Part shown: piece after piece, positions 2,193 to 51,200 of the stretch
Numbering within the stretch: the stretch's first letter is position 1
Layout of the letters: each line of letters starts with the position of its first letter
Assembly: GCF_003097515.1 (NCBI RefSeq)
Contig: NZ_CP029188.1
Location: forward strand, 6,306,531-6,370,530
Source of the DNA: Streptomyces tirandamycinicus
GTDB taxonomy: Bacteria > Actinomycetota > Actinomycetes > Streptomycetales > Streptomycetaceae
Direction of reading: 5' to 3'
Length of the DNA: 64,000 nucleotides
The notes under the pieces: model-generated
Seen by the model: the letters and a program-made list of their open reading frames with translations, nothing else
The model's database searches: none
What the model was told of the DNA's origin: nothing
Made by a program: the position numbers and the translations under genes

Positions 2193-5100
2193 GTGAGCCC
2201 GTCCGCCGACCTGCCCGCCGCGCCGCCGACCCCCGGGCCGCCGTTCGCCGATGAACCTGCCGGGCCGCCGTCCGCCGCGCCGCCGACCCCCGTGCCGCCG
2301 ACTTCCGCGCCGCCGTTCGCCGATGAACGTGCCGCTCCGCCGACCCCCGATCTGGCCGTATCGCCGGTCGAACCGGCCACCGGTCTGGCCGTACCGCCGG
2401 TCGAACCACCCGCCGGTCTGGCCCGTACCGCGCCCGTCTCGGGCCTCCAGCGGGGCCTGTGGTTCCTGGACCGCTGGAACCCGCAGGCCGCCACGTACAC
2501 CACGCCCTGGACGTACGACGTCACCGGTCCCCTCGACCTGGCGCTGCTCCAGCGGGCGCTGGACGGCGTGGTCGACCGGCACGAGGCGTTGCGCACCACC
2601 TTCGCCCTGCACCCCGACGGACCGCGCCAGCGGGTCCACCGCACCCTCGCCGTGCCTCTCGCCGTCACCGACCTCCGCACGCTGCCCGAACCCGAACGGG
2701 GCGACCGCGCGGAGCGGCTGATCGCCGAACGGGCCGCCGCGCCGTTCGACCTGACCGCGGGCCCGCTGCTGCGCGCCGAGGCGTTCCGGCTCGCCGACGA
2801 CCGCACCACGCTCCTGTTCGTGGTCCACCACATCGTCTGGGACGGCTGGTCGGCCGAGCTCTTCGAACGCGAGATCACCGAGTTCTGCAGCGCGCTCGGC
2901 GAACAGCGGGCCCCCCGGCTGCCGGTGCTCACCACCCAGTACGCGGACTGGGCGGAGGAAGAGCGGCGCACCTCCTACGAGGAGCACCTCGCCCACTGGA
3001 AACAGCTTCTCGACGGCGCCCCCACCCTGCTGGAGGTGCCCGGCGACCGGCCGCGTCCCGCCGAGCGCAGCCACCGCGGCGCGACCGAGGCGTTCGGCCT
3101 CGCCCCCGGCACCGCGGCCCGGGTCCGGGCGCTCGCCGAACAGGAGGGCGTCACCCCGTTCACCGTCCAGCTCGCCGCGTTCGCCCTGCTGATGGGGCGC
3201 CGGACCGGCGCCGACGACCTGCTCGTCGGCACCCCGGTCACCACCCGCAACCGCCCCGAACTCGGCGATCTGCTGGGCTACTTCGTCAACCTGCTGCCAC
3301 TGCGCGTCCGGCTCGACCCCCGCGCCACCTTCCGCGGGCTGCTCGCCGGCCTCCAGGACGGCGCCTTCGACGCGTTCGGCCACCTCGACGTCCCCTTCGA
3401 CCAGCTGGTCGACCTGCTCGGCACCCCCCGTACCCCGCAGCACCCGCCGCTGGTCCAGGTGGTGTTCGGTGCCCACGACGAGGACCGCGCACCGCTGAGG
3501 CTCGGTGCCGCCACCGCCGAGCGCACCGTCCGCTCCAACGGCACCAGCAAGTTCGACCTCACCTGGTCCGTCTTCGGCGGCACCGACGGCGGTGAACTGC
3601 GCGGCGAGGTCGAGTACAGCACCGACCTCTTCGACGCCGGCACCGTGCGCCGGCTCGCCGCCGACTATGCGAAGCTGCTCGACGCAGCCCTCGCCGACCC
3701 GGACGCCACCGTGCTCCGGCTCACTTCCGGCGGGCGGCCGCACCGCCCCGCCCGGCTCGAACCGGGCCACTGCCTGCACCGGCTCTTCGAGCGGGCGGTC
3801 GACGCGTACGGCGACCGGCCCGCCGTGAGCGACCCGGAGGGCACCCTCAGCTACGCCGAACTCGACCGCCGCGCCAACCGGTTGGCCCATGCCCTGCTCG
3901 CCCGGGGGGTGCGCCCGGGCGACCGGGTCGGCCTGCTGCTGGAGCGCACCGCCGCCGTGCCGGTCGCGATCCTGGCCGTGCTGAAGACCGGCGCGGCCTA
4001 TGTGCCGGTCGACCTCGCCGCCCCGGCCGGCCGGGCCGCCCTGGTCCTCGGTGACACCGCCGTCACCCTGCTCCTCACCGACCGGCCCGACCGCGCCCCG
4101 GACGGCCCCTGGCAGACCCTCGACGTCGCCGCCCGGGCCGAGGAGATCGCCGCTCACCCGGCCACCCGGCCTCCGGCCACCGGCCGCCCCGGCGACCTCG
4201 CCTACCTCATCTTCACCTCCGGCTCCACCGGCCGCCCCAAGGGCGCCGCCGTCGCCCACGAGCACGTCAGCCGCCTCCTCGACTCCGGCCGGGACCACTT
4301 CGGCTTCGGCCCGGAGACGGTCTGGACGCTGTTCCACAGCTACGCCTTCGACTGGACGGTCTGGGAACTCTGGGGCGCGCTGCTGCACGGCGGCCGCCTG
4401 GTCGTCGTCCCCTACCTCACCAGCCGCTCACCCGACGAGTTCGCCGCCCTGATCGACGGGGAACGGGTCACCCATCTCTGCCTCACGCCCTCGGCGCTGC
4501 GCCAGCTCGAACCGGCGCTGCGCCGGCACCCGCGGGCCCTGCCCGCACTGCGGTGGATCATGCTCGGTGGCGAGGCGCTCGACCCGGGCGTCGTCCAGCG
4601 CTGGTACGGCCTCGACCCGAGGCCGCCCGCCCGGCTCTGCAACCTCTACGGCATCACCGAGACCACCGTCCACGTCACCGTCCACGACGTCACCGTCCAC
4701 GACATGGCCGAGGGCGGCGCGGGCATCGGGCGCAGTCCGGTCGGCGAACCCATGCCGCACCTCACCGCGCTCGTCCTGGACGGATGGCTCCGCCCCTGCC
4801 CGCCCGGCGTCCCCGGCGAGCTGTACATCGGCGGCGGCAGCCTCGCGCACGGCTACTGGGGCCGCCCCGGCCTCACCGCCGGCCGCTTCGTCGCCGACCC
4901 CTACGGACCGCCCGGCGCCCGGCTCTACCGGACCGGCGACATCGCCACACGGCTGCCCGACGGCGGTCTCGAGTACGTCGGCCGGGCGGACTTCCAGGTG
5001 AAGCTGCGCGGATTCCGGATCGAGCTCGGCGAGATCGAGAACGCCGTCGCCGCCCACCCCGAGGTGGACGCCTGCGTGGTCACCGTGCACCAGGACCGGC

Positions 5101-6863
5101 TCGCCGCGTACCTCACCGGGCGCTCACCCGCCGAGCCCCGGGACCTGCGGGCCTTCCTCGCACGCACACTGCCCGAGTACATGATCCCGGCGAGCTTCAC
5201 CGTGCTGGACGCGCTGCCGCTCACCGTCAACGGCAAGGTCGACCGGGCCGCGCTGCCCGCCCCCGACCGGGCCGCGCCCACCCCCGACGGGGGGCACGTC
5301 GAGCCGCGCACGCCGGAGGAGGAGCTGTTCGCCGGCGTCTGGACGGAGGTGCTCGGCGTCGGCGGGATCGGCGTCCACGACGACTTCTTCCATCTCGGCG
5401 GGGACTCCATCCGCGCCGTCCAGCTCGCGGGCGCCCTGCACGAACGGGGCTGGCAGGTCACCCTGCGGGACGTCTTCAACGCCCCCACCGTCGCCGCCCT
5501 GCTGCCGCTGGCCCGCCCGGTGGCCGCCGACCCCGCCGCGGACCGGCCGTTCGCCCTGATCACCGACGAGGACCGGGCCGACCTGCCGCCCGGGATCGTC
5601 GACGCGTACCCGATGGTCTCGATGCAGCTCTCCATGGTCTTCCACATGGAGGTCGCCGGCGGCACCGACAGCTACCACAACGTCAACTCCTACCGCATCA
5701 CCGGTGACCTGGACGAGACCGCCTTCCGCCGCTCGGTCGCCGAGGCGATGGCCCGGCACGCCGTCCTGCGCACCGGCCTCGACCTCTCCGGCTACGGCGA
5801 ACCGCTCCAGCTGGTACACGGCACGCTGCCCGTGCCGGTCGAGTTCGCGGACCTGCGCGGGGCGCCGGAGGAGGAGCAGGACCAGGAGGTACGCCGCGTC
5901 TTCGAGCACCATCGGGACCGGCCCTTCGACCTCGCCGCACCACCGCTCTTCCGGATCACCGTCCAGCGGCTGGCCGACGGCGCCTTCCAGCTCACCGTCT
6001 CCGAGCACCACGCCGTCCTCGACGGCTGGAGCTTCACCTCGCTGCTCACCGAGATCCTCGAACGGCACACCGCGCTGGCCGCCGACCCGGAATCCGCGCC
6101 CACCCCGCCGCCGCGCACCGCCTTCCGGGACTTCGTCGCGGTGGAACGCGCGGCCGCCGCCGACCCCGACTCCCTGGCCTACTGGCACCGGCGGCTCGAC
6201 GGCGTCACCGGCCGGCTCTGGCCCGGCAGCGAGGACGTCCACGAGCTGCCGCGCACGGTGGAGCGGGTGCTGCACGACGCCCCCGGGCAGCTGCGCGCGG
6301 CCGCCGACGCGCTCGCCGTCCCGGTCAAGTCGGTCGCGCTCGCCGCCCACCTGCACGCCCTCGCCCGCATCACCGGGCGCCGCCGGGTCGTCACCGGGCT
6401 GGCGATGAACGGCAGGCTGGAACGGCTCGGCGGCACCGAGGTGTACGGGCTGTTCCTCAACACGGTCCCGCTGGCCGCCGAGCCGGACGGGGATCTGGCC
6501 GCCCTGGTGCGGCACGTGCACCGGGAGGAGCTGGACATGATGCCGCACCGCCGGGTGCCGTTCGCCCGGCTGGCCCGGATGATGGCCGGCACCGCGCTCG
6601 ACAGCCAGTTCGGCTACCTGCGGTTCCATGCGCTGGGCCGGCTCAGCGCGGCCCGGATCGAGGACGGCCGGATCGGCTGCGAGCCGACCCTGCGGCACGA
6701 GCCCAACAGCTTCGCCTTCGGCGCCTCGCTGATCCAGGACCCGGTCTCGCAGCGCGTGCTGCTCGCCGTGGACCACCAGCGCGCGGTGGTGGACGACGCC
6801 ACGGCGGAGGAGTACGTCGACGCCTACGCGACGGCGCTGGCGCGCATGGCCACCGGTATCTGA
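2193..6863 (+). CDS. NRPS-2: C-A-PCP-C
   Basis: A 1556-residue NRPS starting at GTG 2193 behind GGGAACGAGG. Residues 1-75 form a repetitive Pro/Ala-rich tail (PPTP and PPFADE motifs). A condensation domain follows with an intact HHxxxDG at residues 212-218. The A domain spans about 520-1020 ([31 protein letters not shown]). The carrier Ser is at 1072 in LGGDS, and a second condensation domain (about 1115-1556, HHAVLDG from 1272) ends the protein. The read-off pocket D-W-W-C-M-G-L-V-H-K partly matches the Thr code DFWNIGMVHK, so Thr-like is a weak guess. The terminal C domain has no A domain here and should work with the A-PCP protein NRPS-3. A 15-bp in-frame duplication (4675-4704) repeats VTVHD inside the A domain. 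LGGDS is the signature usual before epimerases, yet a C domain follows. Confidence 0.97.
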
Positions 6864-7254
6864 CCCGCCGCGGAGCGCGCTGCCGGACACCTGCCAAGGG
6901 CCGCGTACGGCGGTATCCGCCCGCCCACCCGGCGCTCCGTCCGGCACGCGCCACGGGTGGCCGCTCGTCCGGGGCTCCGTCCCGGCACGCGCCAAGGGTC
7001 CGCCCGGGCGGCGCGGCCGTGACGCCGTCGCCCCGCCGTCGCCTGCCGTCGCCTGCCGTCGTCCGCCGACGCCCGTACCGCCGCCCCGAGGCGGCAGCTT
7101 CCGCCGTGATGCGTCGCGACCCGTCGTGACCCGTCGTGACCCGTGTCATCCGACCTCACCGACCGCACCGACCGCACCGACCGCACCGAACTCACCGACC
7201 GCACCGACCCCATCGACCGCACTGACCCCATCGACCTCCGAGGAGCGTCCTCCC
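6864..7254 (+). repeat. Intergenic region rich in short tandem repeats between NRPS-2 and NRPS-3
   Basis: No gene is seen in these 391 bases. The stretch is built of short imperfect repeats: two copies of a segment around GCTCCGTC..GGCACGCGCCA (about 6930 and 6975), a GCCGTCGCCT series near 7030-7060, a 10-bp GACCCGTCGT series at about 7108-7142, and a 9-bp ACCGACCGC series at about 7158-7230. The Shine-Dalgarno of NRPS-3 (GAGGAGCG) lies at its right end. A promoter may be here but none is recognisable. Confidence 0.75.
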
Positions 7255-9144
7255 ATGACCGCCTTCGCCGATGCGTCCCCCGCCACCCCACCCGTCCGCA
7301 CCCCGCCCGCCACCGCCGCCTTCGTCACCCCGCCCCCCGCCACCGACCTGCTGTCCCGCCTGCGCGCCGCCGTCGCCGCCCACCCCGGGCGGCCCGCCGT
7401 GCACGCCGTCGACGGCAGCCTCGACTTCGCGGAGCTGGACCGCCGCACCGCCGCCCTGGCCCGTGCCCTGCGGGCGCACGGCGTCCGGCGCGGCGACCGG
7501 GTCGGCGTCCACCTCGCCCGCACCACCGACCTGCCGGTCGCGCTGCTCGCCGTCTGGCGGGCCGGCGCCGCGTACGTCCCGCTCGACCCGGCCTATCCGG
7601 CCGAGCGGATCGCCTTCACGGCGGCCGACGCCCGCGTCGCCGTCGTGGTCAGTGCCGACACCGCACCGCCCGTCCCGGCCGGTGTCCCGGTGCTCCGCCC
7701 GGACGCCGCCGCACCGGTGGAAGCCGCCGCTCCGGCCGACCCGGAAACCGACGGCGACGCGGCCGGATTCACCCCCCACGCGCTCGACTCCGCCTATGTC
7801 ATCCACACCTCCGGCTCCACCGGGCGCCCCAAGGGCGTGGAGGTCCCGCACGGTGCCCTCGCCGGCCTCGCCGCCGCGCTGGAACGCAGCGGCGCCTACC
7901 GCCCCGAGCCGGGCGTCGTCGCCTGGAACGCCAGCGTCTCCTTCGACGCCTCCGTCCAGCAGTGGATCCGGATCTGCCGCGGCGACACCCTGGTGGTGAT
8001 CGACGAAGCCCGGCGAGCCGAGCCGGCCCGTCTCGTGGAACTGCTCGCCGGACACGGCGTCACCGACCTCGACCTGACCCCCTCGCACTGGCAGTTGCTC
8101 CGCGAGCCGCTGGCCCAAGCCCCCGTCCCGCGCCTGTTCATGGGCGGCGAGCCAGTGCCCGCCCGCACCTGGCGCGAACTGGCGGGCGCGGGCATCGACG
8201 CGCTCAATCTGTACGGGCCCACCGAGTGCACCGTCGACGCGATCACCACCCCGATCACCGGCCCCGGCCCGCACCTGGGCGAGGCGCTGCCCGGCGTCCG
8301 TGCCTATCTGCTGGACGACCGCCTTTCCCCCGTGACGGCCGCCGGCGCGGTCGGCGAGCTGTACCTGGCCGGGGGCGGCCTGGCGCACGGCTACCCGGGC
8401 CACCCGGGCCTGACCGCGGGCCGGTTCGTCGCCGACCCGTTCGCACCCGAGCCGGGCGCCCGGATGTACCGCACCGGCGACCAGGCCCGCCGCTCGGCCG
8501 AGGGCCTGCTGGAGTACGTCGGCCGGGTGGACCGTCAGATCAAGCTCCGCGGCTTCCGGATCGAACCGGGCGAGGTCGAGCACGCGCTGGGGGCCCTGGC
8601 CGGGGTCACCGCCGCCGCGGTCACCGTGCACGAGCCCGCGCCCGGGGACCGTCGGCTGGCCGGCTACGTCACCGGCGCGGGTGTCCGTTCCGCGGACCTG
8701 CTGGCCGAGCTGCGCCGTACCCTGCCGGGCCATCTGGTGCCGTCCACCGTGACCGTGCTGGACGCCCTGCCGCTCACTCCGAACGGAAAGGTCGACCACC
8801 GCGCCCTGCCCGCCCCGACGGCGGACGCCGCAGCTCCGGACGCGGCCGGCCGGCCCGGCGCGCCCGCCGGGTTGCCCGAGCAGGTCGCCGAGGTCTGGCG
8901 CACCGTGCTCGGTGTGCCCAGCGTCGAACCGGACGACGACTTCCTCTCCCTCGGCGGCCACTCGCTCGCCGCCCTGCGCGTGGTCCACCTGCTGCGCCGC
9001 AGGCTCAACGTCGAACTCCAGCTCCGCCACCTGCTGGACGCCGCCGACCTGGCGGGCTTCACCGAGGCCGTCCGCCGCGCCGCCCAGGCCGGTCCGGCCG
9101 AGGCCCGCCCCGCGCTCACCGCCCGCCGGGCGGCCGTCCGGTGA
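7255..9144 (+). CDS. NRPS-3: stand-alone A-PCP module
   Basis: A 629-residue protein with one adenylation domain and one carrier domain and no condensation domain. The ATG at 7255 was chosen over upstream in-frame starts because GAGGAGCG precedes it and the upstream codons are tandem repeat. After a Pro/Ala-rich leader of about 30 residues come [24 protein letters not shown] and NGKVDHR, then GGHS with the phosphopantetheine Ser at 570. The read-off pocket D-A-Q-D-F-G-L-V-D-K is close to the Gln code DAQDLGVVDK of lichenysin synthetase, so Gln-like is the best guess. It most likely completes the module begun by the terminal C domain of NRPS-2. Its stop overlaps the thioesterase start (GTGA at 9141-9144), so the two are translationally coupled. 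Confidence 0.95.
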   Translation: MTAFADASPATPPVRTPPATAAFVTPPPATDLLSRLRAAVAAHPGRPAVHAVDGSLDFAELDRRTAALARALRAHGVRRGDRVGVHLARTTDLPVALLAVWRAGAAYVPLDPAYPAERIAFTAADARVAVVVSADTAPPVPAGVPVLRPDAAAPVEAAAPADPETDGDAAGFTPHALDSAYVIHTSGSTGRPKGVEVPHGALAGLAAALERSGAYRPEPGVVAWNASVSFDASVQQWIRICRGDTLVVIDEARRAEPARLVELLAGHGVTDLDLTPSHWQLLREPLAQAPVPRLFMGGEPVPARTWRELAGAGIDALNLYGPTECTVDAITTPITGPGPHLGEALPGVRAYLLDDRLSPVTAAGAVGELYLAGGGLAHGYPGHPGLTAGRFVADPFAPEPGARMYRTGDQARRSAEGLLEYVGRVDRQIKLRGFRIEPGEVEHALGALAGVTAAAVTVHEPAPGDRRLAGYVTGAGVRSADLLAELRRTLPGHLVPSTVTVLDALPLTPNGKVDHRALPAPTADAAAPDAAGRPGAPAGLPEQVAEVWRTVLGVPSVEPDDDFLSLGGHSLAALRVVHLLRRRLNVELQLRHLLDAADLAGFTEAVRRAAQAGPAEARPALTARRAAVR

Positions 9145-10097
9145 CCGCCGCGACCACGGGGACCGCCGCCACTACTGCGACCGCCGCGACCACGGTGACC
9201 GGTGCGACCGCGGTGACTGGTACGAGTGCGAGCACTGCGACCGCCGCGAGCACTGCGACTGGTGCGACCACGGCGACCGCCGCACACGGCGCACCCGCCG
9301 CGCGGACCGCCCGCCCCCGGGCCGAGGGCGACTGGCTGCTCGTCCCCGCGCCCCAACCCCACCGCCCCTTACGCTTGTTCTGCTTCCCGCACGCCGGCGG
9401 CGACGCCACCGCCTACACACGGCTGGCCCGTGCCCTGGCACCCGTCGCCGAGGTCTGGGCGCTGCGCCCGCCGGCCCGGGGCGGCCGCAGCCGCCATCCG
9501 ATGCCGCCGGACTTCGAAGCCCTGGTGGCCGCCGTCACCGAGGCCATCACCCCGCACCTGACCGGCGGCGACGGCGGCCGGTTCGGCTTCTACGGGCAGA
9601 GCCTGGGCGCCCTGCTCGCCTACGAGGTCGCCCGCGCCCTGCCCGCCGAACGCCGCCCCGAGCTGGTGGTCGTGGCCGGCGCACCCAGCCCCGCCGAGTG
9701 GACCGGGCGCGGGACCAGGGACCTGGACGCGCCGGAGCTGCTCAGACTCACCGGCCTGGACGAGCTGGTCGGGGCCGATCCGGACCTGGCCGAACTCGCC
9801 CTGGGCGCCATCCGCACCGATCTCGCCGTCAGCGCCACCTACCGCCACCGCGCGCACGCGCCGATCGGTTCCGCGCTGTACGCACTGGCGGGGGCCGACG
9901 ACCCCACGCTCGCCACCACCGCCCTCACCGGATGGGCCGCCCACACCAGCGGCGCCTTCGGCCACGGCGTCGTCCCGGGCGGGCATCTGCTCGCCACCGT
10001 CGACCGGACCGGTCCGGTCGGCCTGCTGGTCTCTCTTCTGACCGGCCGCCGTCCATGGGCCCCTTCCCGCACCGCCCCCAGGGAGCAGCCATGCTGA
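9141..10097 (+). CDS. Type II thioesterase with Ala/Thr-rich N-terminal tail
   Basis: An alpha/beta hydrolase of the editing thioesterase (RifR/GrsT-like) family. These enzymes free NRPS carriers from misloaded or stalled acyl groups. The core begins about residue 60 (LFCFPHAGG), carries the nucleophile motif GQSLGA, and ends with the His region PGGHLL, so the catalytic features are in place. The first 50 or so residues are almost only Ala, Thr, Gly and Ser, encoded by a degenerate repeat of ACCGCCGCGACC type. GTG 9141 overlaps the NRPS-3 stop as GTGA. Internal in-frame GTG codons within the repeat could also serve as starts. The stop overlaps the ATG of the P450 gene (ATGCTGA at 10091-10097). 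Confidence 0.92.
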   Translation: MTAATTGTAATTATAATTVTGATAVTGTSASTATAASTATGATTATAAHGAPAARTARPRAEGDWLLVPAPQPHRPLRLFCFPHAGGDATAYTRLARALAPVAEVWALRPPARGGRSRHPMPPDFEALVAAVTEAITPHLTGGDGGRFGFYGQSLGALLAYEVARALPAERRPELVVVAGAPSPAEWTGRGTRDLDAPELLRLTGLDELVGADPDLAELALGAIRTDLAVSATYRHRAHAPIGSALYALAGADDPTLATTALTGWAAHTSGAFGHGVVPGGHLLATVDRTGPVGLLVSLLTGRRPWAPSRTAPREQPC

Positions 10098-11602
10098 CCG
10101 CCGCCACGAGCACGAACGCCACCGCCTCGACCGCCGCCACGAGCACGAACGCCTCGACTGCCGGCGCCGCCACGTCCGCCACGACCACGAACGCCGCCAC
10201 CACCGCCCCGACGACCCCGACGACCCCGGCCACCCCGACCGCCGTGACGGGCGCCACCGCCCCTGTCTCCACCTCCACCACCTCCGCCTCCACCACCTCC
10301 GCCTCCACCACCTCCGCCTCCACCACCTCCGCCTCCACCACCACCTCCGCCTCCACCACCTCCGCCTCCACCACCTCCGCCTCCACCACCACCTCCGCCT
10401 CCACCACCTCCGCCTCCACCACCTTCGCCGCCGCCGTCGATCTCACCGACCCGGGCCTGTGGGCCCGGCCCGGCACCCCGGCCCTGGTCGCCGAACTGCG
10501 CCGCGAGGCACCCGTACACCGCACCGACACCGTCGACGACGGCCCGGTCTGGTCGGTGCTCACCTACCGGGAGTCGGCGGACGTGCTGCGCAACGCCGCC
10601 GCGTTCAGCTCGGAGTCCGGATCGCTGCTCGGCTCGGGGGAGGGCAAGGTGCCGGTCGGCTCGGGCCGGATGATGGCCCTCACCGACCCGCCCCGCCACC
10701 GCGAGCTACGGGCCCCCGCCAACCCCTTCTTCTCCAAGGGCGGGGTACGCGGCGCCGCCCGCTCGATCGCCGAGCGGGCCGGCGAGCTCTTCGACCGGGC
10801 CGTCGAGCAGGGCGAGGTGGACCTCGTCGACGTCGTCTCCGCGCTGCCGCTCGCGGTCATGTGCGATCTGCTGGACGTTCCCGAGACGGACCGCGACATG
10901 GTGGTCCGGGTCTGCGACACCGCGTTCCTCGGCCGCACGCCGGAGGAGCGCCGCGCCGGGCACCAGCAGCTCATCCCCTACCTGCTGCACCAGGTGATGC
11001 TGCGCCGCACCGACCCGCGCGACGACCTGATCTCCATGATGGCCACCTACCGGGTCGGCGGCCGGCTGCTGCCGGTCGAGGACGTGGTGCTCAACCTGGA
11101 CAACATCGTGGTGGGCGGGGTCCAGACCGTCCGCCACACCGCCGCCATGGGGCTGCACACCCTGGTCCAGCGGCCCGACCTGTGGCGCATGCTGCAGCGG
11201 GGCGAGGTGTCACTGGACTCGGCCGTGGACGAGCTGCTGCGCTGGACGTCGGTGGGGCTGCACACGCTGCGCACCGCGACCAGGGACATCGAGCTCGGCG
11301 GGCAGCGGATCCGGCGCGGTGACCGGGTGGCGGTCTGGGTGTGGTCCGCCAACCGCGACCCGGAGGCCTTCGACCGGCCCGAGGAGATCCGGCTCGACCG
11401 CTCGCCCAACAAGCATCTCGCCCTGGGACTCGGCGCCCACTACTGCATCGGCGCGCCGCTGGCCAAGGCCGAGCTGAGCGCGCTGTACTCGGCCGCGCTG
11501 GAGAAGACGTCCCTGATCGAGCCGGCCGGGCCGGTCCGCCACAACAGGTCGATCATCAACTTCGGCCTCGACCACTTCCCGGTCCGCCTGATCCCCCGGT
11601 AG
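10091..11602 (+). CDS. Cytochrome P450 with repeat-encoded Ser/Thr-rich N-terminal tail
   Basis: A 503-residue cytochrome P450, probably a tailoring oxidase for the peptide or a carrier-bound residue. The P450 fold starts at about residue 115 (VDLTDPGLWARPG) and includes the EXXR-type helix K and the heme loop LGLGAHYCIGAPLA with the thiolate Cys. Two positions are unusual. The I-helix reads GGVQTV, with Gln in place of the common acid before Thr, and Leu replaces the usual Phe at the start of the heme loop. Residues 1 to about 113 are a low-complexity Thr/Ser/Ala tail, including about ten STTSA units from a 15-bp minisatellite. ATG 10091 overlaps the thioesterase stop, which supports translation of the tail. 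The only other in-frame start seen, GTG 10244, would still keep the repeat. The substrate cannot be read from the sequence. Confidence 0.93.
   Translation: MLTAATSTNATASTAATSTNASTAGAATSATTTNAATTAPTTPTTPATPTAVTGATAPVSTSTTSASTTSASTTSASTTSASTTTSASTTSASTTSASTTTSASTTSASTTFAAAVDLTDPGLWARPGTPALVAELRREAPVHRTDTVDDGPVWSVLTYRESADVLRNAAAFSSESGSLLGSGEGKVPVGSGRMMALTDPPRHRELRAPANPFFSKGGVRGAARSIAERAGELFDRAVEQGEVDLVDVVSALPLAVMCDLLDVPETDRDMVVRVCDTAFLGRTPEERRAGHQQLIPYLLHQVMLRRTDPRDDLISMMATYRVGGRLLPVEDVVLNLDNIVVGGVQTVRHTAAMGLHTLVQRPDLWRMLQRGEVSLDSAVDELLRWTSVGLHTLRTATRDIELGGQRIRRGDRVAVWVWSANRDPEAFDRPEEIRLDRSPNKHLALGLGAHYCIGAPLAKAELSALYSAALEKTSLIEPAGPVRHNRSIINFGLDHFPVRLIPR
10267..10424 (+). repeat. Coding minisatellite, 15-bp unit (STTSA), in the P450 gene
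   Basis: About ten tandem copies of a 15-bp unit of TCCACCACCTCCGCC type, all in frame. Two copies are lengthened by one ACC triplet (18 bp), so the frame is never lost. The + strand is almost entirely pyrimidine plus A. The complementary strand has regular GG runs (GGCGGAGGTGGTGGAGG type), a pattern that can form G-quadruplexes. Confidence 0.95.
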
Positions 11603-12103: not shown

Positions 12104-13102
12104 ATGCCCACCTGGGAACTGAACCCGGGCCGACCGGCCCTCACCCGTGTGCCGGTCACCGCCGACCTCGCCGAGGCCTGCGAGTGGCTGCGGCAGCACG
12201 AGGCCGAGCTGACCGCCGCCCTGCACGAGCACGGCACGATCTTCCTGCGCGGGTTGCCGGTGGCGCGGAGCGCGGACGTCGCCGCCGTCCGCGACGTACT
12301 GATCCCCGAGCCCACCCCGTACCGGGAGAAGGCCACCCCCCGCAGCGACTACGGCAACGGCGTCTTCTCGTCCACCGACCTGCCGCCCGCCCAGTCGATC
12401 CGGATGCACAACGAGAACAGCTACACCCTGACCTTCCCCGGCCGGCTGCTCTTCGCCTGCCTGACCGCCCCCGAGGAGGGCGGCGCCACCCCGACCGCCG
12501 ACGTCCGCGAGGTCCTCGCCCGGCTCCCCGGCCACCTGGTGGAGCGGGGCCGGTCCTCCGGCTGGATCCTCACACGCAGCTACTCGGACTACGTCTCGCT
12601 CGGCTGGCGCACCGCCTTCGGCACCGAGGAACGAGCCGACGTCGAGCGGTACTGCCGTCGCAACGGCATCGCCTGGCAGTGGCAGCCGGACGGCAACCTG
12701 CGCACCAGCCAGCTGCGTTCGGCCACCGTGCACCACCCGGTCACCGGCGAGGAGGTCTGGTTCAACCACCTGGCCTTCTGGAACGAGTGGTCGCTCGACC
12801 CGGACATCCGGGAGGCCATGGTCGACGAGTTCGGCCCGGACGGCCTGCCGTTCAACACCGGCTTCGGCGACGGCGAGCCGCTGTCCCGGGAGGACGTGGA
12901 CGCCCTCAACGCGGCCTACGACGCCGCCACCGTCCGCGAGACCTGGCAGGCGGGCGACGTGATGCTCGTCGACAACCTGCTGTGCGCGCACGGCCGCGAC
13001 CCGTTCCGCGGCGACCGCAGGATCGCCGTCGCGATGGGCCGCCCCGTGGACCTCCTGGACTGCCGGCCCACGGTGCACCCCACCGCCGCAGTCCCCGCCT
13101 GA
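12104..13102 (+). CDS. SyrP/TauD-like Fe(II)/2-oxoglutarate-dependent hydroxylase
   Basis: A 332-residue non-heme iron dioxygenase of the TauD/SyrP group. Members hydroxylate amino-acid side chains, often on carrier-bound residues; SyrP acts on Asp. The iron-binding triad is visible: His102 and Glu104 in MHNENSY, and the distal His296 in AHGRDPF. An Arg-rich segment ([12 protein letters not shown]) then follows, where the 2-oxoglutarate-binding Arg is expected. ATG 12104 has a weak GGTGAG ahead of it. GTG 12092, in frame and overlapping the MbtH stop as GTGA, is an equally possible start. The gene sits between mbtH and NRPS-4, so it probably makes a beta-hydroxy residue in the peptide. Which residue is unknown. 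Confidence 0.93.
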
Positions 13103-48274: not shown

Positions 48275-51200
48275 ATGGATGAACCCGGACGCACTCGGAC
48301 CCATACGGGGCGCGAGCACCCGGAGGGGGCCCGGCCACCGGCGGAGCTGAGCGAGGAAGGGCTCAGGACGATCCTGGCCGGGCTCGCCGCGGTGCGCGAC
48401 GGCGACTTCTCCTCCCGGCTCCCCGAGGAGGCCGGCGGGATCATGGGGGAGATCGCCGCCGTCTACAACGGCATGGCCGACCAGCTGGCGCTGGTCGCCT
48501 CCGAGGTCACCCGGGTCGCCAGTGAGGTGGGCGGCGAGGGGCGGCTCGGCGGGCACGCCCGGGTGGAGGGCGTGGGAGGGGTCTGGCAGGAGCTGACCAC
48601 GGGTGTGAACACCATGGCCGACAACCTCACCTCGCAGGTGCGGTCGATCGCCCAGGTCGCCTCCGCGGTCGCCCGGGGCGACCTGACGCAGAAGATCCGG
48701 GTCGACGCGCGGGGGGAGATCCTGGAGCTGAAGGAGACCATCAACACGATGGTCGAGCGGCTGTCGTCGTTCGCCGAGGAGGTCACCCGGGTGGCCCGCG
48801 AAGTGGGCACCGAGGGCGATCTGGGCGGTCAGGCCACCGTCCGCGGGGTGTCCGGCACCTGGAAGGACCTCACCGACAACGTCAACTCCATGGCTACCAA
48901 CCTGACCAACCAGGTACGGAACATCGCGCAGGTCACCACCGCGGTCGCCCGGGGCGACCTCACCCGCCGGATCGACGTGGACGCGCGGGGGGAGATCCTG
49001 GAGCTGAAGACGACCATCAACACCATGGTCGACCAGCTGTCGTCGTTCGCCGCCGAGGTCACCCGGGTCGCCCGGGAGGTCGGCAGCGAGGGACGGCTGG
49101 GCGGCCAGGCCGAGGTCGAGGGCGTCTCCGGCACCTGGAAGCGGCTCACCGAGAACGTCAACGAACTGGCCGGGAACCTCACCCGCCAGGTCCGCGCCAT
49201 CGCGGGTGTCACCAGCGCCGTCGCCGAGGGGGATCTGACCCGCTCGATCACGGTGGAGGCGCCGGGCGAGGTCGGAGACCTCAAGGACAACATCAACGCG
49301 ATGGTGGAGTCGCTGCGCGCCACCACCCGCGCCAACGAGGAGCAGGACTGGCTCAAGACCAATCTGGCCCGGCTCGCCGGACTGACGCAGGGCAGCCGCG
49401 ACCCCGTCCAGGTCGCCCACGTGATCATGGAGGAGCTGCCACCGCTGGTCTCGGCACAGTACGGGGCGTTCTTCCTGGCGGCACCCGCGGGTGAGGGGCC
49501 GGGCGACGGTGACGGCGACGGCCGGGGTGAGGGGGTGGGCGAGGTGGTGGGGGAGGCCGGAACGGAGCTCGTGAGGATCGCCTCCTACGGCGCACCGACC
49601 GCGGCGGCGTCCGAGCCGCCGGTACGCTTCCGGCTCGGGGAGTCCCTGGTCGGGCAGGCCGCTCTCAGCCGCCGCACGGTGGCCGTGGACGACCTGCCGC
49701 CCGGCTATGTCACGATCTCCTCCGGACTCGGCGCAGCACCGCCGGCGGCGCTGATCGTGCTGCCGATCCTCGTCGAGGACCAGGTGCTCGGTGCCGTGGA
49801 ACTCGCCTCTGTGCGGCCCTTCTCCGGTCTCCACCGCGACTTCCTCGACCAGTTCGTCGAGTCGGTCGGCGTCGTCGTGAGCTCCCTGATCGCCCATGCC
49901 CGCACCGACGAGCTGCTGGAGCAGTCCCAGTTGCTGACCGCCGAACTGCGCGCCCGTTCGCAGGAACTGCAGGTCCGTCAGGAGGAGCTGCAGAGCTCCA
50001 ACGCGGAACTCGCCGAGAAGGCCGCCCTGCTGGCCGACCGCAACCGCGACATCGAGCGCAAGAACCTGGAGATCGAGCAGGCCCGGCAGGAGCTCGAGGA
50101 GCGGGCCAAGCAGCTCTCCCGTACGTCGATGTACAAGTCCGAGTTCCTCGCCAACATGAGCCACGAGCTGCGCACCCCGCTCAACAGCCTGCTGATCCTT
50201 GCCCAGTTGCTCGCGCAGAACCCCGAGGGGAACCTGACGGAGAAGCAGGTCGACTACGCGGAGGTCATCCACTCCGCGGGCTCGGACCTGCTGCAGCTGA
50301 TCAACGACATCCTCGACCTGTCGAAGGTCGAGGCGGGGAAGATGGACATCCACCGGGAGCCGTTCGCGCTGGGGCGGCTGCTGGAGTACGTCGAGATGAC
50401 CTTCCGGCCCCTGGCGACCGAGCGTGAACTCGGGTTCCGGGTCGTCACCGCGCCCGGGGTGCCCGCGGAGATCACCACGGACGAGCCGCGGCTGCGGCAG
50501 GTGCTGCGCAACCTGCTGTCCAACGCGCTGAAGTTCACCGAGCGCGGCGGAGTCGAACTCCGGGTCCAGACGGCGGCCGACGACGAACTTCCCGACCGGC
50601 TGCGAGGTGTGCCGGTGGTCGCCTTCCGGGTGCGGGACACCGGCGTCGGAATCGCACCGGAACACCTGGACACCATCTTCGGAGCGTTCCAGCAGGGCGC
50701 CCTGGCGACCGGCCGCCGCTACGGCGGCACCGGGCTGGGACTCTCCATCAGCCGGGAGGTCGCCCAGCTCCTCGGCGGGGTGATCGTCGCCGAGAGCCGG
50801 CTCGGTGAGGGCAGCGAGTTCACCTTCTACGTGCCCGTCGGCGGCACCCTGCCGCGCGGCCCGGCCTCCGGAGCCCGCGAGGGGCCGCTCGAGCGGGGCG
50901 GAGAGGCCCCGGCCGCCGGCGGTGGGTCGCTCGCGGGGCGCGTGGTCCTGATCGTCGACGACGACGTGCGCAATGTGTACGCGATCACCGAGATCCTGGA
51001 GGCGGAGGGGGCGCATGTGCTCACGGCGGCCGACGGGCGTTCCGGGATCGAACTGCTCACCGCGCACCGGGAGGTGGACCTCATCGTGATGGACGTGATG
51101 ATGTCCGGCATGGACGGCCACACCGCCACCGCCGCGATCCGCGGGACGCCCGGCTTCTCCGACGTGCCGATCATCACCGTCACCGCCAAGGCGATGCCGG

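Follow-up and report, generated by a model that had tools for sequence, protein, structure and literature searches.

Sky32 and OxyD are P450s for β-hydroxylated residues, and Sky32 acts on PCP-bound amino acids, as stated in PMC6920865. We analyzed a P450 gene in 64,000 nucleotides of Streptomyces tirandamycinicus DNA (the window), which belong to a single-contig 7.29-Mb genome. The gene (10091..11602; plus strand, as are all features below unless stated otherwise) encodes a P450sky/OxyD-like protein of 503 amino acids. It shares with P450sky (CYP163B3) and OxyD, which β-hydroxylate amino acids bound to carrier proteins in NRPS pathways, the adjacent genes for a stand-alone adenylation-thiolation (A-T) protein and a stand-alone thioesterase (TE); however, the window P450 is only 32–34% identical to these enzymes, which have no tail comparable to its N-terminal one. 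Coding minisatellites whose in-frame repeats extend the disordered ends of proteins are a known class. The P450 tail resembles this class in that the repeat unit is a multiple of three, the copies are near-identical, the length differs among relatives, and the product is predicted to be disordered. Unlike members of the class, the tail begins a translationally coupled biosynthetic gene and lies beside similar expansions in the neighboring genes. Among the literature matches listed, none described P450 tails of such kind or Streptomyces minisatellites, which is no proof of absence.

The P450 assignment was based on translation, Pfam, and sequence and fold matches in the PDB. The protein matched the Pfam p450 model at 76 bits (3.3e-21) against a curated cut-off of 22.8. 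The heme loop LGLGAHYCIG is located at 445 and ELLR (the ExxR motif) at 381; C452, E381, and R384 were invariant in 17 sequences. The strict heme-loop pattern, which we take to include a leading Phe, was not matched, as Leu occupies that place. Using AlphaFold with 17 aligned sequences, residues 1–114 were predicted to be unfolded (pLDDT <50), and a P450 fold followed after residue 114 with three short weak stretches. In the fold comparison, P450sky with its carrier protein (4pxh) ranked first, CYP125MRCA second and third, and OxyD (3mgx) seventh. By sequence, P450sky and OxyD were among the top four matches and CYP125MRCA was slightly better. The P450sky match was a 446-residue chain with 35 residues ahead of the aligned part. 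The I-helix motif is GGVQT in the window P450, GGNET in OxyD, and GGDET in P450sky; Q345 of GGVQT was invariant in the 17 aligned sequences, and OxyD and P450sky have Glu at this position. An A-T partner is present in the cluster, where the A-T (7255..9144) and TE (9141..10097) genes adjoin the P450 gene. Because of these neighbors and the similarity to P450sky and OxyD, the P450 most likely β-hydroxylates an amino acid held on the neighboring A-T protein, whether or not the tail is present.

The neighboring genes of the cluster also carry repeats. An NRPS with two condensation domains, one adenylation domain, and one carrier domain by Pfam (2193..6863) begins with a repeat-rich leader (2193–2435; TRF arrays at 2199–2292 and 2340–2431). 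For the A-T gene, the ORF list gave GTG 7126, from which the Pfam search was run and which would add a PTAPTAP tail; this tail was rejected, as the orthologues and a retrained gene caller gave ATG 7255, leaving a leader at 7255–7344. Because the A-T gene starts at ATG 7255, the 9-bp array found by TRF upstream of it (7150..7236) is probably intergenic. By eye, the adenylation pocket of the A-T protein (7345–8544) suggested a Gln/Glu-like code, read at what we assume to be the GrsA positions. The TE gene (Pfam PF00975) starts with a GTG overlapping the A-T stop codon, and its 62-residue leader, TAATTGTAATT..., is built from repeats (9141..9326; TRF 9139–9217 and 9228–9283). Downstream of the P450 gene, the same cluster contains a TauD-family dioxygenase gene (12104..13102, start from the gene caller; Pfam PF02668, run from 12020), which is followed by a large NRPS ORF.

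The P450 gene, with its ATG at 10091–10093, overlaps the TE stop codon TGA at 10095–10097, and a Shine-Dalgarno sequence, AGGGAG, precedes the ATG at 10080..10085, in a context that is the same or nearly the same in most orthologues. The start and VDLTDPGLWARPG are separated by 115 codons, mostly for Thr, Ser, and Ala (10091..10435), in agreement with the stretch of about 113 such residues described by the first-pass annotation; the conserved core, defined by alignment, extends from 10436 to 11602. T, A, S, and P make up 92% of residues 2–114, and K, R, D, and E are all absent from the translated tail. A more diverged 33-bp repeat with 2.4 copies (10097..10174) and a 9-bp repeat (10206–10239), both found by TRF, lie in the first half of the tail. 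The second half is a 15-bp array of TCC GCC TCC ACC ACC (10267..10429), for which TRF gave period 15 with 10.5 copies (score 258) and a higher-order period of 48 bp (score 291). Unit splitting gave ten units, the number proposed from the sequence at first sight, i.e., seven identical 15-bp units, two that carry one extra codon (ACC), and the first unit, which differs by one substitution; the description of the copies as differing by whole codons is therefore nearly exact. The array thus consists of tandem copies in frame with a unit that is a multiple of 3, as in coding minisatellites. A 26-bp array probe allowing ≤2 mismatches matched the whole genome nine times, each time within the array itself; therefore, a mobile or dispersed repeat was rejected. 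An antisense poly-Gly ORF (9839–10699, minus strand) was also rejected as a gene, as it was not chosen by the codon-based caller and mirrors the NCC codons.

We compared the tail with those of orthologous P450s. In all 19 orthologues (73–94% identity), the leader was 5–27 amino acids long, compared with 115 here, and that of L038 possibly measures 1. The commonest form, found in eight of the 19, was M(L/P)TTT followed by at most two residues. Intermediate leaders of 27, 24, and 21 amino acids occurred in L054, L028, and L027, respectively; these are T/A-rich repeats with other units, and the units given by TRF measure 24 bp in L054 and 15 bp, with a different sequence, in L057 (same genome as L027). 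The P450 start was ≤6 nt from the TE stop in 15/19 orthologues (exceptions L042, L039, and L040; TE not found in L038), a count that leans towards the junction because the start nearest the TE stop was taken when a locus had several in-frame starts. By this rule, the start codon was GTG in L029, L030, and L038 and TTG in L042, and a Shine-Dalgarno-like motif was present at all 19 chosen starts; the start context of L028, cagggagcagccATGCTGACC, is identical to that of the window over these bases. The core tree paired the window with L056 (leader of 5 amino acids), with weak support (0.46). The dN/dS of the P450 core was 0.10–0.17 against seven orthologues, indicating purifying selection. Duplicate loci were counted once (L010=L054, L011=L055, L012=L057=L027, L013=L056, L014=L058=L041, L015=L059=L039, and L016=L060=L040). 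Outside the 19, six P450 loci at 48–54% identity (L043–L046, L061, and L062) had leaders of 4–18 amino acids save L043, in which the GTG picked by the rule gives 51 and a nearer ATG about 11. Loci at <45% identity (L019–L026 and L047–L053) were left unused; one of these, L021, has a 26-residue T/A/P-rich leader. The first-pass annotation had counted orthologues without the tail and with a clear start at the P450 fold against its reading; the tail is indeed absent from the orthologues, but they start at the same junction. Therefore, the tail is an insertion downstream of the start rather than an error of annotation. The view of the tail as a slippage-driven length variable agrees with the difference between species, and slippage would be the process behind it.

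The neighboring leaders also varied in length. Among 17 scored orthologues, TE leaders measured 9–70 amino acids, compared with 62 in the window, and the longest was that of L029, whose P450 leader has 5 residues. A-T leaders were 2–28 amino acids long in the 18 orthologues scored (30 here); the A-T entry of L033 (409 amino acids) was removed as a wrong match on a cut contig. In L060 (9251–9342, reverse-complement coordinates) and L040 (upstream of 3387), an 18-bp repeat duplicates the A-T start codon (MTDATSMTDATSMTETTS), giving several possible starts. The eight cluster loci compared contain 42 arrays, of which 23 lie in the three junctions; these junctions occupy 5,031 bp out of 70,092 bp (binomial p of 6e-16). 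This test was defined post hoc, the arrays are non-independent, and the window contributes nine of the 23 junction arrays. L059 had no array in the junction comparison.

We then assessed how unusual the tail is. Entropy was 2.32 bits for the P450 tail and 2.22 for the TE leader, both below all N-termini in a sample of 623 proteins (≥200 amino acids) drawn from 1.2 of the 7.29 Mb of this genome, where 0/623 had an N-terminal 60-mer below 2.5 bits; 2/623 C-termini in the same sample fell below this value. In the relative G025, one of 224 N-termini, a P/Q/G-rich repeat, had 2.28 bits. No array scoring >70 was found in Markov-resampled sequence of this genome, so the array exceeds what chance would give. 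Meanwhile, arrays with a score >291 and a period up to 60 were present in the sample of the genome itself. The P450 tail is extreme, not unique in kind. Other repeat-built N-termini were seen in the sample, among them a T/A-rich one in L119 (14386–15507), and a tail of 48-bp repeats of other composition (MPDQASGQASDRTVDGV...) in L088 (10472–11458), whose product contains a Walker-A-like GPNGAGKTT and by eye is an ABC-type ATPase.

Tandem arrays were abundant in the genome as a whole. Using TRF (score ≥50) on 60 evenly spaced 20-kb stretches of this genome (L063–L122) and 20 stretches from each of three same-genus relatives, we found 555 arrays per Mb, compared with 398 in G383, 230 in G025, and 112 in G290 (per-stretch Mann-Whitney p of 0.004, 8e-7, and 4e-9, respectively) and 25–38 in Markov controls. 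The density of G383 is not far under that of this genome, and the lower GC content of G290 (69.4% vs 72.4%) may confound the comparison. The retrained gene caller gave 842 genes in 1.2 Mb (73% coding), probably still under-calling; 141 of the 208 arrays with ≥3 copies were outside called genes, with 73% of the sequence covered by the caller. Inside called genes, arrays showed no enrichment at gene starts: their density per Mb was 60 over the first 360 nt, 74 over the middle part, and 102 over the last 360 nt. Therefore, the concentration at junctions may be peculiar to this operon. Simple loss of NucS or SbcD as the source of the repeat excess was rejected, as both were found in 4/4 genomes. 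In addition, 276-bp repeats occur inside long ORFs, with 2.9 copies in the window (48472–49270) and 9.6 copies in L106 (8518–11170); these presumably resemble repeated sensor-kinase HAMP-type segments.

We postulate that the tail was built by recurrent tandem duplication at the ends of NRPS genes linked by translational coupling, and that this duplication was tolerated as its product is disordered; we consider this explanation probable. The ancestral state would be a short, usually Thr-rich leader separating the P450 fold from its coupled start codon. Short NCC-codon runs (ACC ACC ACC) would seed tandem duplications via replication slippage or unequal recombination, and the duplications that keep the frame would be tolerated because the segment is outside the fold and disordered, its mRNA is almost unfolded, and the start-stop overlap is undisturbed. 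Translational coupling would hold the start fixed while the leader grows, and the same growth would take place at neighboring junctions of the NRPS operon within an array-rich genome. On its minus strand, the array has a G content of 66% and numerous GG steps, which, speculatively, could favor polymerase stalling and slippage. The tail is most likely a lineage-specific expansion of a short leader without a specific role, with slippage as the presumed mutational process and the tail presumably neutral. Several observations count against this explanation, including the lack of enrichment at called gene starts and the caveats given above for the junction test and the comparison with relatives. 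The P450 tail and TE leader are lower in entropy than all 623 sampled N-termini, so something may favor this operon. In addition, the T/S/A frame was kept through repeated expansions, which could mean selection on composition; as another frame of the unit encodes poly-Pro, tolerance may depend on the frame.

Other explanations were weighed against recurrent duplication. A P450 fold normally begins shortly ahead of the aligned region, as would be expected if translation began downstream and the array were leader DNA only. However, the only other in-frame start inside the tail, GTG 10244, is upstream of the array and after a pyrimidine-rich stretch; the frame scan found no in-frame ATG, GTG, or TTG between this codon and the core; and the next in-frame start, GTG 10556 (residue 156), is inside the fold, beyond D117, P121, W124, and R137, each invariant in 17 sequences. 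A late start was rejected because the stretch from the end of the array to the fold lacks a start codon; production of a functional P450 would therefore require translation of the array. The start and the Shine-Dalgarno sequence (10080–10093) also recur in orthologues. We thus regard an unmade tail as highly improbable. The annotated start looks right, as far as sequence can say, and the tail would be translated in vivo, as had been expected from the start overlapping the previous stop. The array may instead act at the RNA level, where an unstructured C-rich stretch would ease re-initiation and the repeat number would tune the P450 dose. Such a benefit is conceivable because no structure is predicted for the array RNA: its MFE was 0.0 over 120 nt from 10300, which 0/207 segments of the 2.2–27 kb region matched, and only 6/207 folded as weakly as the 120 nt starting at 10086. 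The short orthologous leaders are likewise Thr-rich. However, the array starts 176 nt past the start codon, beyond the initiation region, and leaders of 5–9 codons suffice in 13/19 orthologues; we consider an RNA-level role unlikely.

A role for the tail as a disordered linker or a docking segment, keeping the P450 near the A-T protein, would suit the A-T protein, TE, and P450, which are expected to cooperate and carry Thr/Ala/Pro-rich leaders in many compared species, and among the scored loci the window ranks first in P450 tail length and second in TE leader length. However, orthologues with the same set of A-T, TE, and P450 genes lack the tail: P450 leaders have 6 residues in L033–L037, and in L034–L037 the TE leader has 12 and the A-T leader 2. 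The tail is uncharged and lacks a conserved motif, conservation is likewise absent from its repeat units and amino-acid patterns, and P450sky, the closest fold match and solved in a complex with a carrier protein, has 35 residues before the aligned part. A docking role, as suggested by the first-pass annotation, is therefore improbable. The suggestion of a glycosylated segment is likewise not borne out, as the translated tail contains no charged residues and no exporting hydrophobic segment.

The P450 tail and the orthologous leaders form a clean evolutionary series from 5 to 115 residues, in which the start position and the core are constant, and illustrate how a disordered tail is born; a docking function should not be presumed for every low-complexity N-terminus of a high-GC genome. 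As a lead, the repeat excess across the genome is better than the P450 tail, and this excess, measured against three sampled relatives, opens the cause of repeat expansion in actinomycetes to testing. A wider reading, which we hold only tentatively, is that the rate of tandem duplication in this lineage is elevated across the whole chromosome, and that start-stop junctions of coupled biosynthetic operons are permissive sites at which disordered N-termini are repeatedly built from few NCC codons and possibly tuned by selection on how strongly the coupled gene is expressed. If true, new intrinsically disordered protein segments would still be arising in this way.
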